The translations under genes and the position numbers were made by a program. Shown here piece after piece: positions 10,727 through 44,854 of a stretch of 64,000 nucleotides of DNA (position 1 is the stretch's first letter; each line of letters starts with the position of its first letter). This stretch comes from an uncultured Gammaproteobacteria bacterium. Its GTDB lineage: Bacteria > Pseudomonadota > Gammaproteobacteria > Eutrophobiales > Eutrophobiaceae. The DNA is taken from assembly GCA_943788815.1 (NCBI GenBank), contig CALSRS010000001.1:1177501-1241500 (forward strand). The letters are read 5' to 3'. The notes beneath the pieces were generated by a model. It was not told the DNA's origin. It saw only the letters and a program-made list of their open reading frames with translations, and ran no database searches.

Positions 10727-12268
10727 TTACCAGGTGCTATTAGACTTAAATTCCTCTATAGCAGACTGTAGTGCACTTTCAATCTCATCAGAATAATCAC
10801 CTGATTCATTAATCTTGCTCATCAAATCCTTTTTCTCACTATTCATATAGCTATGTAAGGCAGATTCAAATGCGCCAATCTTTTCGAGCTCAATATCATC
10901 TACAAAGCCGTGCTCAACCGCGTATAGACTAACAGCCATTTCTGCTACGTTTAGTGGTGCATACTGATGTTGTTTCATCAATTCCATCACTCTTTGACCA
11001 CGCTCTAACTGTTTGCGTGTTGCTTCATCCAGATCTGATGCAAACTGAGCAAACGCAGCCAGTTCGCGATATTGAGCAAGTGCCAGACGAATACCACCAC
11101 CGAGCTTCTTAACGATTTTCGTCTGCGCCGCACCACCCACTCGTGATACAGAAAGACCAGCATTAATGGCGGGACGGAATCCAGAATTAAATAAATCTGT
11201 TTCCAGATAAATCTGGCCGTCAGTAATGGAAATTACATTTGTTGGTACGAATGCAGAAACGTCTCCTGCCTGAGTTTCAATAATAGGCAGGGCTGTAAGT
11301 GAACCGGTTTTGCCTTTCACTTTACCTCCCGTCAATCGCTCCACATAATTCGCATTTACACGGGCAGCACGCTCAAGCAAACGGGAATGCAAGTAAAATA
11401 CGTCCCCAGGATATGCCTCGCGTCCTGGTGGTCGCTTTAACAACAAAGAGACCTGGCGATATGCCCAGGCCTGCTTTGTTAAATCATCATAAATGATTAG
11501 GGCGTCTTCACCCCGGTCCCTGAAGTATTCGCCCATTGCACAGCCGGCATAGGGTGCAATGTATTGCATGGCGGCCGAATCCGATGCGGTTGCTGCTACG
11601 ACGATCGTATGGTCCATGGCACCATGTTCTTCAAGCTTACGAATAACAACATTAATAGAAGAGGCTTTTTGACCAATCGCGACATAGATACATTTAATTC
11701 CCGTACCTTTCTGATTGATAATAGTATCCACAGCAACTGCGGTCTTTCCTGTCTGGCGATCACCAATAATCAACTCACGTTGACCTCTTCCTACAGGAAC
11801 CATGGAGTCAATGGATTTCAAACCCGTCTGAACAGGTTGAGAAACCGATTGCCTGTCTATGACACCTGGAGCAATTTTTTCTATCGGTGAAGATTCGTCG
11901 GATTTAATCTCACCTTTCCCGTCAATGGGAATACCAAGCGAATCTACAACTCTTCCCAATAAAGCTTCACCTACCGGGACTTCAAGAATTCGTTTGGTAC
12001 ATTTGACTGTGTCTCCCTCACTCAGATGGAGATAATCTCCCAAAATCACGGCACCGACAGAATCCCTCTCCAGGTTCATGGCGAGCCCGTATGTATTCCC
12101 CGGGAACTCAAGCATTTCACCTTGCATGGCATCACTTAATCCATGAATACGTGCAATACCATCAGACAGACTGACGATAGTTCCCTCGGTATGTGCCTCG
12201 GTTTGAAGATCGAAGTCTTTAATTTTCTTCTTTATTAAATCACTTATTTCTGTTGCGCTGATAGACAT
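10727..12268 (-). CDS. atpA: ATP synthase F1 subunit alpha
   Basis: Non-catalytic nucleotide-binding subunit of F1. 513 residues, P-loop [11 protein letters not shown] at about 169-179, conserved [22 protein letters not shown], and the glutamate-rich regulatory N-terminal segment. 46 bp after atpH. Confidence 0.99.
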
Positions 12269-40231: not shown

Positions 40232-40720
40232 TTACTTAACTTCGGTCCGCTGCAATACCCTTTCGTCGTACCTGACTTTCTGTTTATCTGTGAGATCCCT
40301 TCGCATCTCGATCAAATGCTCATATCGAATCCTCATAATCTGCTTTTTAGCCGCCATCAATTCATCTATCTTTGCATTGACTTCTCTCAGATTCACGTCT
40401 TCACGAATCGTCATCTCGTTTAATTCCTTTAATGCTAGCGCTTCCTTTTCCTTGTATGGCTTCTGGTCGTCATCAAGTTGATGATGCATGTGGTTAAATT
40501 TCTCGCGCTGCTCTTTTGAATAGCCTGCCCGTTGCATATGACCAGCATGACCTTCAGCGGCATGACCTTCTCCTGCAAGTTCTTCATGCTTTGCTTTTTC
40601 TCCATGCTCATGTTTTGCATTTTCATCATGCTCATGTTTCTCCTGAGCAAACAAGCCAGTTGAATTGATGATTAACATCAAAAACATAGCTCCCAAAACA
40701 TTTAAATATTTCCCATTCAT
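40232..40720 (-). CDS. Histidine-rich periplasmic protein, Spy/CpxP-ZraP-like
   Basis: 162 residues. Signal peptide (about 1-25, ends FAQ), a His/Glu-rich stretch at about 27-62 (EKHEHDENAKHEHGEKAKHE and two GHA repeats) likely to bind zinc, copper or nickel, then a long helical part with the DLTDKQK variant of the LTxxQ motif. Spy and ZraP relatives act as periplasmic chaperones or metal sensors. Operon with the broken gene downstream. Confidence 0.8.
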   Translation of the reverse strand: MNGKYLNVLGAMFLMLIINSTGLFAQEKHEHDENAKHEHGEKAKHEELAGEGHAAEGHAGHMQRAGYSKEQREKFNHMHHQLDDDQKPYKEKEALALKELNEMTIREDVNLREVNAKIDELMAAKKQIMRIRYEHLIEMRRDLTDKQKVRYDERVLQRTEVK

Positions 40721-40828: not shown

Positions 40829-41995
40829 TTATTTAAGCCTTTTTTTCATATACTCCAGTATAGCCCTGGCCGCCCTGACTGATGATGGGGTATCGGTAAT
40901 TTCAAATGTAGATTCAAATAATTCCTTTTGATAAGGCATGTAGTCCTCATGGGTGGTAATCGCTAGTGTCAGGCAATCATCCAGCTGACTAACGTGATCG
41001 AACACGATCCCTGTTTTCCAGTTGATATAACTGGGATCGTTTTCCCACTTAACATGATGCGCATTAGCAAACAGACATGGTCGAGGACGGATTAAAAATT
41101 CATGAAACTGACTACTAACGTCACCCAGATATATATCAGCAGATAAGGTATATGTCATATCGTTACAGGCGATACTATTAGTATCAATAAGTATGTGATC
41201 ACATGTTCTATATTTATTCGGGATGCTTTTGACCCAACCGGGCGTCATGGTCTCTTGTGAGATATGCATCTTTCTAGTGTATAACATCACGTGTGGCGCA
41301 AATATCAAATTATATTTATCTGATTTATAAAAATACTCCAGAATATCCAATCCCATTTCATACCAGGAAGAAACATTGGGTGAAAAATGAGGGTTATATA
41401 AAACCACAGGCTTATCATTATCAAAAAAACGCTTTGGTGGTTTTGTATAGGCCCCAACAGCATCAAATTTTGGGTATCCGACGATAACTGATTCAGCATG
41501 GTCGAGTACACCTTCGCGCTGCATTCTAATCTGCGTCTTTGGTCCAGAAACAAATACCAGATCAAATTTCCCAAACTCCTTGTTAAACCCAAATTTTCGG
41601 TCACCTGAGCCATGTGCGGTAAATATAAATTTTATATGTTCAAGACCAAATTTAGTCTTGAGTAATAAACTGGTCTTTTCTGGAGCCACCAGAACATCTA
41701 ATTTTCTGAATACATCCAGGTTCATACGCATCATTATAACCTTGGTAAAAGGTAATGCTTTATCTATGAATTTTCCCAGTATCCGAATTATTGTCGGCAA
41801 AGATATGTCGATATACTCGCATTTCTGCCCGGGGAATTCTGACTCAAACTGCTTGATGTAGTCTAGTTGTTTGCTGGATGAGGTGATGACACTCACATCC
41901 ACATCATCAGCCATCCTTGAAAGCTCGAAGGCAACTGGAATTGCATGCGGAATTTGATGAAGCTGTTCGTGATTAAATAAAAATCCAATTTTCAT
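40829..41995 (-). CDS. CDP-glycerol glycerophosphotransferase-like (TagB/TagF family) protein
   Basis: 388 residues, GT-B-like fold of the Glyphos_transf type: FTAHGSGDRKFGF near residue 130, a C-terminal acceptor/donor region with ADIYLGDVSSQFHEFLIRPRPCLFAN around 305-330. Members transfer glycerophosphate-like or related units from CDP-activated donors to surface polymers; no membrane segment is seen. The upstream gene makes a nucleotidyltransferase/phosphatase fusion, so this may complete a short polyol-phosphate or similar polymer pathway. Confidence 0.75.
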   Translation of the reverse strand: MKIGFLFNHEQLHQIPHAIPVAFELSRMADDVDVSVITSSSKQLDYIKQFESEFPGQKCEYIDISLPTIIRILGKFIDKALPFTKVIMMRMNLDVFRKLDVLVAPEKTSLLLKTKFGLEHIKFIFTAHGSGDRKFGFNKEFGKFDLVFVSGPKTQIRMQREGVLDHAESVIVGYPKFDAVGAYTKPPKRFFDNDKPVVLYNPHFSPNVSSWYEMGLDILEYFYKSDKYNLIFAPHVMLYTRKMHISQETMTPGWVKSIPNKYRTCDHILIDTNSIACNDMTYTLSADIYLGDVSSQFHEFLIRPRPCLFANAHHVKWENDPSYINWKTGIVFDHVSQLDDCLTLAITTHEDYMPYQKELFESTFEITDTPSSVRAARAILEYMKKRLK

Positions 41996-42044
41996 ATTTT
42001 AAATCTGTTATTTATCTTAAATTAGCTGTTATAGGCACTAGTAC

Positions 42045-43586
42045 TCATAAATTGATATAGTCCTGGTAGGAAATGGACTGACTGTCCCAGTAAAGAGTAT
42101 TTACATTTTGATTTCTTCTTGCCCACTTCTCCAGTTTATCGGATGGATTGATGACTACGGGATGACTGCAAACCTCCAGTAGTGGAATGTCAGAATGGTG
42201 ATCTGTATAAAACCAGATTTCTTTTCCCGACTCCTTAAATTCTCTTAGATTACCAAGTTTTTTTTCTACGATAGCCAATTTATCTTGACCATAACAATTT
42301 TTGCCATTGATACCAGGCACTACCTTCCCGTCTTCTTCTCGTGACTTAGAAGCCATGATTTCATCAAAACCCAGGCGCCTGGCAAAACTCCTTGCCATCC
42401 AGTCAAAGCTGGCCGTTGCAAGGACAAGCTTTGCACCAGATGTTTGCCATCGACGTATGCAAAATAATGCATCTAAATTGACACTTTTCTCCAGCAGCTG
42501 GTTCACATAACGATCACATACATCGTCCAAATGGCTTTTATCTGGTTTGCCTATTAACAAAGATTGCATCAGTGTTTTGAGTTGTTTTCTAGAAATCATC
42601 TTACTTAGATAAAGTAACATCATGAGCACAACGACTGGCAGTAATAGCAAGCGTAAAGGATTATTTCTGACTGCATAATAAAGTAGAAACGGGAGAAATG
42701 TTCCATGAGTGGTAATTGTTCGGTCTAGATCAAAAATAACCAATGGTCTCTCGGAGTTGTCTGCTGGCGGATGACTGCCTGACTTTTTCTCCCTAAGATT
42801 AAATATCGATTCAATTTGGACTATGTCTGATATTTTATCAGCATCAATAGCAATATCTGGATCACTGACTACAACTGCTTGAACTTGCGTCAGTGTCTTT
42901 TTAGAAATATATTCAAACGACGCTTTCACGCTCATTTGTTTCAAAAGATATTTGATAAAGATGATAGGGCCTATTGACCATGCAAGCTTAAATACCTTTT
43001 TAGGTCGAGATTCAAACGACTTCCAGTATGAAATAATATTTTCTGCAGCCTCACTTTGGACAAGAAAAAGATTACAGCCGGTGGCTGAAATATCTTTAAA
43101 TGTTAGCCATGTTCGGCGTGACTCAGGATAACGGTTAACCAATTGAGTTTTCTCGACCAATCCAAGTGATAAATCAGCCTTATTTTTTTCCGCTTTTGCC
43201 AAAAAGTCGTCGACATGTTCCTGTCGTATCATACAATTATCGGCTGTCGTTATAATAAATGGGACACTAAGGCCAATGCTCTTCCACGCTGTCAATATTG
43301 AACTGGCAATTCCAGACCCGCTTTTTAAAAATATTACCTTTTCGCCGGGTGAGTAGTCACCAAGCGTAGACTTGAGTTCATCTGGTGACTGCGATAAAAC
43401 ATAAATATGAGAAATATTCATCATAGATTCCAGGCTAGACAAGGTGTGCATAATCATAGGCTTGCCTGCAACCGGCGCTGTGACCTTGAAATCAGTTCCA
43501 AAAAATTCAGCTATAGGATCAAGGCCTGGTCTACGACCAGCTAACAACAGGACAGATAAGGGCTTGTCATTAGTATGAGAAATCAT
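42045..43586 (-). CDS. Nucleotidyltransferase - HAD-IB (PgpC-like) phosphatase fusion
   Basis: 513 residues. N-terminal GT-A nucleotidyltransferase (about 10-260; LLLAGRRPG, FKVTAPVAGKPMIMHTL, TTADNC as metal site) and C-terminal HAD phosphatase (about 285-505; FDLDRTITTHGTFLP nucleophile segment, TASFDW, FYTDHHSDIPLL). A 20-residue hydrophobic stretch at about 317-336 in the cap recalls membrane-bound PgpC. A nucleotidyltransferase joined to a phosphatase is unusual. With the TagF-like gene 49 bp downstream it may activate and trim a polymer building block. Substrate unknown. Confidence 0.75.
   Translation of the reverse strand: MISHTNDKPLSVLLLAGRRPGLDPIAEFFGTDFKVTAPVAGKPMIMHTLSSLESMMNISHIYVLSQSPDELKSTLGDYSPGEKVIFLKSGSGIASSILTAWKSIGLSVPFIITTADNCMIRQEHVDDFLAKAEKNKADLSLGLVEKTQLVNRYPESRRTWLTFKDISATGCNLFLVQSEAAENIISYWKSFESRPKKVFKLAWSIGPIIFIKYLLKQMSVKASFEYISKKTLTQVQAVVVSDPDIAIDADKISDIVQIESIFNLREKKSGSHPPADNSERPLVIFDLDRTITTHGTFLPFLLYYAVRNNPLRLLLLPVVVLMMLLYLSKMISRKQLKTLMQSLLIGKPDKSHLDDVCDRYVNQLLEKSVNLDALFCIRRWQTSGAKLVLATASFDWMARSFARRLGFDEIMASKSREEDGKVVPGINGKNCYGQDKLAIVEKKLGNLREFKESGKEIWFYTDHHSDIPLLEVCSHPVVINPSDKLEKWARRNQNVNTLYWDSQSISYQDYINL

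Positions 43587-43858: not shown

Positions 43859-44854
<996 letters not shown>

Follow-up and report, generated by a model that had tools for sequence, protein, structure and literature searches.

What could a gammaproteobacterium make with a nucleotidyltransferase (NTase) fused to a HAD phosphatase and placed beside a relative of TagF? This question was raised by two genes in a stretch of 64,000 nucleotides from an uncultured member of the Gammaproteobacteria (contig CALSRS010000001.1, positions 1,177,501 to 1,241,500; hereafter the window). The fusion gene (42045-43586, minus strand) is followed on the same strand by the TagF-like gene (40829-41995, minus strand), and no terminator-like site was found in the 49-bp gap between them (41996..42044). 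Our analysis pointed, with modest confidence, to a sphingolipid head-group module, in which a CDP-activated group would be made, a phosphate removed, and the group transferred to the head of a sphingolipid. The link of the pair with sphingolipid genes, which was missing from the initial annotation of this locus, was found here. The fusion, the intact motifs, the folds, the co-occurrence with sphingolipid genes, and the shared synteny were observed here.

The fused enzyme and its TagF-like neighbour

The fusion protein (513 residues) was encoded in a single reading frame, in which Pfam recognised NTP_transf_3 (31.6 bits) and HAD (91.2 bits), each above a cut-off of 27. The NTase domain comprised residues 1-272 (42771..43586, minus strand), and the HAD-IB domain comprised residues 273-513 and the stop codon (42045..42770, minus strand). 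In the AlphaFold model (mean predicted local distance difference test score, pLDDT, of 91.0), the NTase half matched Thermus TTHA0179 (2dpw; Z 26.2, 231 residues), and the HAD half, taken as residues 278-501 with the cap included, matched 3fvv (Z 25.9, 218 residues), the solved structure of a HAD protein of unknown function. The HAD half reached the curated score of the NCBIfam model TIGR01490 for HAD-IB proteins (119.4 bits against a cut-off of 98.3). NCBIfam listed 22 models for the fusion, of which just the two HAD-IB subfamily models, and no equivalog, exceeded their cut-offs; the PgpC model TIGR01545 gave 38.9 bits, under its cut-off of 259.25.

Analysis of the NTase alignment A3 revealed that K34, D248, and D250 were conserved in all 32 rows that had a residue at these positions, R19 in 32 of 33 rows, and D116 in 32 of 34. 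Weak matches to CTP_transf_3 (15/24) and IspD (14/24) in the NTase family pointed to CTP as the probable nucleotide. In the HAD half, D286, K436, and D462 were present in 19 of 19 rows with a letter, D288 and D466 in 21 of 21, and S393 in 10 of 19, with alanine in the other nine; judged by its residues, this half looks active. The membrane-like stretch that the initial annotation had seen in the HAD cap is a real hydrophobic segment (about residues 311-327; 42606..42656, minus strand). Because the HAD half superposes on 3fvv together with its cap, the segment was recognised as a cap helix of the HAD fold (helix 310-327 in the model). Two congener fusions (L021 6028-7839 and L022 9253-11136) carried a C-terminal extension of about 100 residues that resembled, by eye, a small open reading frame (ORF) at L021 12794-13069 with a sub-threshold PepSY match.

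Database searches with the second protein (388 residues) returned no Pfam or NCBIfam match, the curated score of PF04464 not being reached, and no match in a PDB sequence search; PF04464 had no match anywhere in the genome of the window (G000). Its model (pLDDT 93.5) was closest to TagF (3l7k; Z 24.3, 320 residues, root-mean-square deviation 3.8; VIA), followed by TarL (8va1; Z 22.8) and by 8a0c (Z 22.1), a capsular multienzyme that we take to be Bcs3. UDP-GlcNAc 2-epimerases reached Z 20-23, below TagF and level with TarL. Since the fold separated TagF only narrowly from these epimerases, the motifs were used. When the profile of the protein was aligned with nine canonical PF04464 proteins using hhalign (probability 97.2, E 3e-11, 236 columns), H128-G129-S130-G131 fell on the HG motif, which read HGxP in eight of them and HGSG in L174. 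These residues open the HGSGDR motif (H128-R133; 41597..41614, minus strand), of which H128, G129, G131, D132, and R133 were invariant in all 53 sequences of the TagF-like family. From this alignment we infer that H128 is the equivalent of the catalytic H444 of TagF. G131 occupied the position of the proline in the canonical HGTPLK-type motif; the proline of the glycerol-phosphate type (P447 of TagF) was found in none of the 53 members, all of which had glycine there. In the available text of PMC10299916, a rule built on TagF P447 and CroT G99 connects glycine with ribitol-phosphate transfer and proline with glycerol-phosphate transfer. Because the invariant HGxG holds the ribitol-associated residue, a transferred unit that is larger than glycerol-phosphate, or charged as phosphoglycerate is, appears plausible by analogy.

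The family was described with alignment A4, whose 53 rows comprised 45 of 46 chosen locus rows (L055 was dropped for a stop) and eight rows from the window and its relatives. PF04464 matched 28 of the 53 members at E<=0.01; among four members that were checked, L096 was barely over the cut-off, L072 was under it, and L059 and L167 had no match. With NCBIfam, TarL came up for two members (best E 0.005) and two stray names turned up once each, and the best PDB match of the family profile was TarL at E 0.051. The TagF-like assignment holds, as a prediction, by modelled structure and profile-profile alignment. The initial annotation was right to place an NTase-HAD fusion beside a TagF-like transferase in a Gram-negative and to see interest in the gene pair, and the structural comparison it had suggested agreed for both halves of the fusion and for the second protein.

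Association with sphingolipid genes

Relatives were collected from contigs of one genome per species with the TagF-like alignment as query. The best 80 of 389 related stretches were kept, and these came mostly from Sphingomonadales, Acetobacteraceae, Nevskia/Solimonas, and Rhodospirillales-type records, as grouped by record annotation. Genes in these loci were called with tblastn and by conservation, since calling of long ORFs found 69 of the 80 TagF-like genes (misreads in GC-rich sequence), and names outside the family tools (hemB, GT4 in some loci, and the lipopolysaccharide (LPS)-core genes) were assigned by eye. For 50 of the 80 loci, the genomes were then examined for serine palmitoyltransferase (SPT) and the NTase. 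SPT was present in 49 of these 50 carriers (48-58% identity, E <= 6.6e-120), and the NTase family was present in all 50 (E <= 6.3e-73), as a single copy in 38. SPT lay at most 30 kb from the NTase in 18 of the 50 genomes and the TagF-like gene was its neighbour in 15, one genome being counted in both groups; in 18 genomes the NTase was near neither. Of the 58 genomes in a set of relatives that included G000, 18 had SPT at 53% identity or above, and the 10 carriers were all among these (Fisher p 8e-7; 4e-4 when the own genus was left out); each of the 10 also had CerS. In a sample of 299 Pseudomonadota, SPT occurred in 4 of 4 carriers, three of which were from one family, compared with 22 of 299 genomes overall; none of the 26 genomes with canonical PF04464 had it. 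In 369 Gammaproteobacteria, the corresponding counts were 3 of 5 carriers and 23 of 369 genomes.

The association was also seen in gene order, for which the labels CpgA-D and LptF2/G2 denote gene order and similarity to the genes of locus L026, labelled from the available text of PMC11324152. NTase relatives without a HAD domain sat in clusters with SPT, an acyl carrier protein (ACP), CerR, AasR, CerS, a CpgD-type NTase, and LptF2/G2; phosphoesterase, CDP-alcohol transferase, and diacylglycerol kinase (DAGK)-like genes were identified in such clusters by Pfam on single examples. The NTase domain of the fusion was 25-31% identical to these cluster NTases. The TagF-like gene itself stood directly beside SPT in L059, L060, L062, and L066 and near SPT in G008. 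In G287, it adjoined a CC_1158-like phosphoesterase, with an overlap of 13 bp between the ORFs, followed by a 335-aa ORF and a flippase, and the same contig run held SPT, CerS, CerR, AasR, ACP, CpgA-, CpgB-, CpgC-, and CpgD-like genes, an NTase, and LptF2/G2. The flippase family, searched with the L033 protein, was found in 34 of the 80 TagF-like loci and also beside SPT in L033 and L038. G000 has a sphingolipid cluster of its own at about 1,765.9-1,775.8 kb of contig C1, with CpgC-like (Tam41), CpgB-like (DAGK), LptG2, LptF2, CerS, AasR, CerR, ACP, and SPT genes. In the 40 kb at this cluster, no relative of the NTase, CpgA, or CC_1158 was found at E 1e-3, and the sole match to the CpgD query covered 63 aa of a protein that was a MurU above the cut-off; the fusion was the only NTase match in the whole genome. 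The search for CpgA, CpgD, and CC_1158 relatives covered the window and these 40 kb. The initial annotation had counted homologues in another pathway as evidence against its phosphodiester product. This applies in part, as NTase relatives lie in phosphosphingolipid clusters, but that pathway also makes phosphodiesters.

Three of four congeners retained the pair (G001, with two loci, one of them with a second fusion, G002, and G003), and therefore the fusion is no sequencing accident. In G004, the fusion search gave only a 29% relative of the N-terminal half, and a 119-aa C-terminal TagF-like remnant (L146 7307-7666) lay between the recR region and a flippase, with no fusion upstream; the matching place in G001 held recR (TIGR00615), the fusion, a full TagF-like gene, and a flippase in this order. 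The two genes were apparently lost together in G004 and therefore look dispensable. A search for the gene pair, as the initial annotation had proposed, yielded unfused neighbours in further loci as well. Separate adjacent genes were arranged as NTase-HAD-TagF in L068, L080, and L121 and as TagF-NTase-HAD in L072 and L081, and unfused neighbours on the opposite strand were found in L061 and L069. Within 3 kb of the TagF-like gene, both NTase and HAD genes were present in 13 of the 80 loci (one of which, L099, was counted on a short antisense NTase match), NTase only in 7, and HAD only in 10.

The NTase tree was calculated from a trimmed alignment of 34 rows, obtained from 39 by leaving out copies and one fragment and adding the NTase of the window. 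The six fusion NTases formed one clade (100/99), sister to the NTases of L072 and L081 (98/97). The cluster NTases fell on another branch, as did the rpiA-linked NTases and marine, TagF-linked NTases of the L070 type. The fusion clade thus lay outside the branch holding the sphingolipid-cluster NTases in this midpoint-rooted tree, some forks of which are weak. The rpiA-linked NTases are paralogues beside an rpiA-looking gene in two congeners (L035 1389-2204 and L036 9934-10743), which hints at pentose phosphates.

Other features were recorded around the pair and its relatives. Upstream of the fusion, a hemB-looking ORF (by eye; 43859-44854, plus strand) was divergent. Downstream of the pair, a His-rich, exported-looking ORF (40232-40720) matched Metal_resist below threshold, and in G002 a similar ORF comes after an asparagine-synthase gene. 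Of the plasmid records, 1242 matched the fusion and none covered 80% of it in one place. A response regulator and sensor kinase pair adjoined the module in two congeners (L021 8999-11003 and L024 6836-8795), and related regulators and kinases, grouped in clusters c7 (found at 13 of the 80 loci) and c8 (found at 12), lay within 10 kb of the TagF-like gene. In L096, a GINT1_N-domain protein (11289-12209; 126.6 bits, cut-off 27) adjoined the TagF-like gene, and the GINT1_N cluster c5, of Sphingomonas type, stood beside it in 17 of the 80 loci; the domain takes its name from a plant inositolphosphorylceramide glycosyltransferase. Two diverged TagF-like ORFs were found in tandem in LPS-core-looking surroundings at L164 8690-10893, in G230, a genome without SPT at the cut-off.

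Candidate reactions and competing explanations

TagF-type enzymes use CDP-alcohols, NTases of the MobA/IspD type make activated phosphates, and HAD-IB enzymes cut phosphomonoesters. In the sphingolipid head-group module, the NTase half would use CTP to convert the phosphate of a small alcohol or acid, either phosphoglycerate or a polyol phosphate, into a CDP-activated group. The HAD-IB half would expose a hydroxyl by cutting the terminal phosphate off the donor precursor or, in a PgpC-like manner, off a lipid-bound intermediate, and onto this hydroxyl the TagF-like GT-B enzyme would move the phospho-group from the CDP donor. The product would be a ceramide-phosphate-based lipid whose head group is attached through a phosphodiester, and its export may involve LptFG2, perhaps with a MOP-type flippase. 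The initial annotation had proposed a phosphodiester surface polymer; the sphingolipid link gives partial support to the phosphodiester, but not to a chain of more than one or two added units. We regard as rather doubtful the bolder proposal that the TagF-type enzyme builds a phosphodiester chain of a non-glycerol unit (HGxG type) on ceramide phosphates. Such a teichoic-acid-like pathway in sphingolipid-making Proteobacteria would give an anionic outer-membrane analogue of lipoteichoic acid, which may replace the phosphates of LPS.

Several observations weigh against the sphingolipid module. In 50 of the 80 loci, neither NTase nor HAD was found within 3 kb of the TagF-like gene. The pair is about 550 kb from the G000 sphingolipid cluster, and so outside it, and no flippase stands beside the pair in the window. 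The carrier G095 had no clear SPT, with relatives at up to 31% identity only. G230 and G297 (31-34% identity), the carriers without SPT at the cut-off among the 369 Gammaproteobacteria, had the lowest TagF-like scores of the five, and the copy in G230 was located among LPS-core-looking genes (by eye). Because the carrier lineages are few and share ancestry, the p-values overstate independence, and the control of 0 in 26 is by itself not significant (p 0.13). In G001, G003, G004, G012, and G025, the flippase of the module belonged to another family than the sphingolipid-cluster flippase, with no BLAST link at 1e-5, which makes the sphingolipid reading slightly weaker and slightly strengthens an explanation in which phospho-polyol groups are added by the pair to a glycan on a lipid carrier (O-antigen, capsule, or the sugar chain of a glycosphingolipid) that is made with the neighbouring GT4 enzymes and MOP flippase. 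The sphingolipid link would then reflect only lineage or a ceramide anchor. We consider this a real possibility, if not a likely one. It fits a GT4-type cluster present in 45 and a flippase cluster, c2, present in 28 of the 80 loci (up to 10 kb), the asparagine-synthase-type gene beside the TagF-like gene in G002 (TIGR01536 over its cut-off) and, by eye, in G025 and G012, the flippase after the TagF-like gene in G001 (contig C20) and G003, and the Gram-negative capsule that the TagF-like CroT builds in Bcs3 according to the available text of PMC10299916. The glycosyltransferases, flippases, and asparagine-synthase genes near the TagF-like gene suit a glycan cluster equally well and, like the neighbouring GINT1_N proteins, are compatible with a glycan or glycosphingolipid acceptor. 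This explanation is countered by the lack of SPT in all 26 canonical PF04464 carriers of the Pseudomonadota sample, by the TagF-like genes inside sphingolipid clusters of several lineages, and by flippase family c2, which also stands beside SPT in L033 and L038.

It is unlikely that the two proteins are no partners at all, the NTase acting like CC_1153 in the core CPG2-type pathway and the TagF-like protein having a separate task. NTase and SPT do occur without the TagF-like gene in G013, G018, G023, G033, G036, and G049, and the NTase is not adjacent in most TagF-like loci; against this, an NTase in 20 and a HAD gene in 23 of the 80 loci lie within 3 kb of the TagF-like gene, and three of the four congeners have kept the pair, while G004, without the fusion, has only the TagF-like remnant after recR. 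A third alternative is very improbable, with the NTase as a molybdopterin or sugar-nucleotide enzyme, the HAD half as a housekeeping phosphatase such as histidinol-phosphatase, and the TagF-like protein as a UDP-sugar enzyme. The MobA-like Pfam name of the NTase, the histidinol-phosphatase match of the fusion (75 bits, under the NCBIfam cut-off of 280), and the Z scores of the epimerases noted above would agree with it. The passing of HAD-IB subfamily models without any equivalog, the rank of TagF above the epimerases, the motifs shared with canonical PF04464 members, and the weak CTP-directed matches of the NTase family speak against it.

The head-group module therefore remains the preferred reading. 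It nominates the TagF-type family, with its 389 related stretches in one scan, as a sphingolipid-associated transferase and connects it to the NTases found at the place of CC_1153, and the fused protein is open to direct expression and assay. If the reading is true, TagF chemistry would not be confined to Gram-positive walls and to capsules but would also serve the membrane lipids of Gram-negative bacteria, where it was not expected.

Comparison with known systems

No TagF-type enzyme tied to sphingolipids by gene was found in a partial search of the literature. In the available text of PMC12275187, TagD/TagF were used as an analogy, and the words TagF and glycerophosphotransferase are absent from the main text of PMC11324152, where, in the portion available, the transferase proposed for Caulobacter is CpgA, of the CDP-alcohol phosphatidyltransferase type. 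According to the same portion, a Caulobacter CC_1153 mutant had no detectable CPG2. The clusters described here resemble CC_1152-CC_1168 of Caulobacter in having an NTase at the place of CC_1153 and the order CerS, NTase, CpgD type, LptF2/G2, a correspondence made by place and not by the sequence of CC_1153. They also share ceramide-kinase-like and Tam41-like CpgC genes with the CPG2 genes, as described in the available parts of PMC11324152 and PMC12275187. The fusion is not CpgD-like: the CpgD-type protein of L026, which stood in for Caulobacter CpgD in this comparison, gave E 0.17 against the fusion and, as a query, no match in the window. With HAD-IB-hyp1 (TIGR01490) and PgpC, the fusion shares a score over the TIGR01490 cut-off and a hydrophobic cap; it differs from PgpC in scoring far below the PgpC cut-off.

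The TagF-like protein resembles TagF and TarL (PF04464) in its predicted GT-B fold and in the aligned HG, G-Y-P-K/R-x-D, and D-x-S-S motifs, but differs from them in having no Pfam match, in carrying HGxG where eight of the nine canonical proteins have HGxP, and in occurring together with sphingolipid genes. In Haemophilus influenzae type b, Bcs3 combines CroT (TagF-like), CrpP (a HAD phosphatase), and CriT, and its HAD phosphatase strips a terminal phosphate to free the acceptor before CroT acts (PMC10299916, available text). The roles of a TagF-like enzyme and a HAD phosphatase recur in the window, as does the glycine of CroT at the place of TagF P447. In contrast, CrpP keeps only the first motif Asp, the regions named in that text include no nucleotidyltransferase, and the product is a capsule. 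Compared with Bcs3, the pair in the window would unite the same two roles with a predicted donor-making enzyme.

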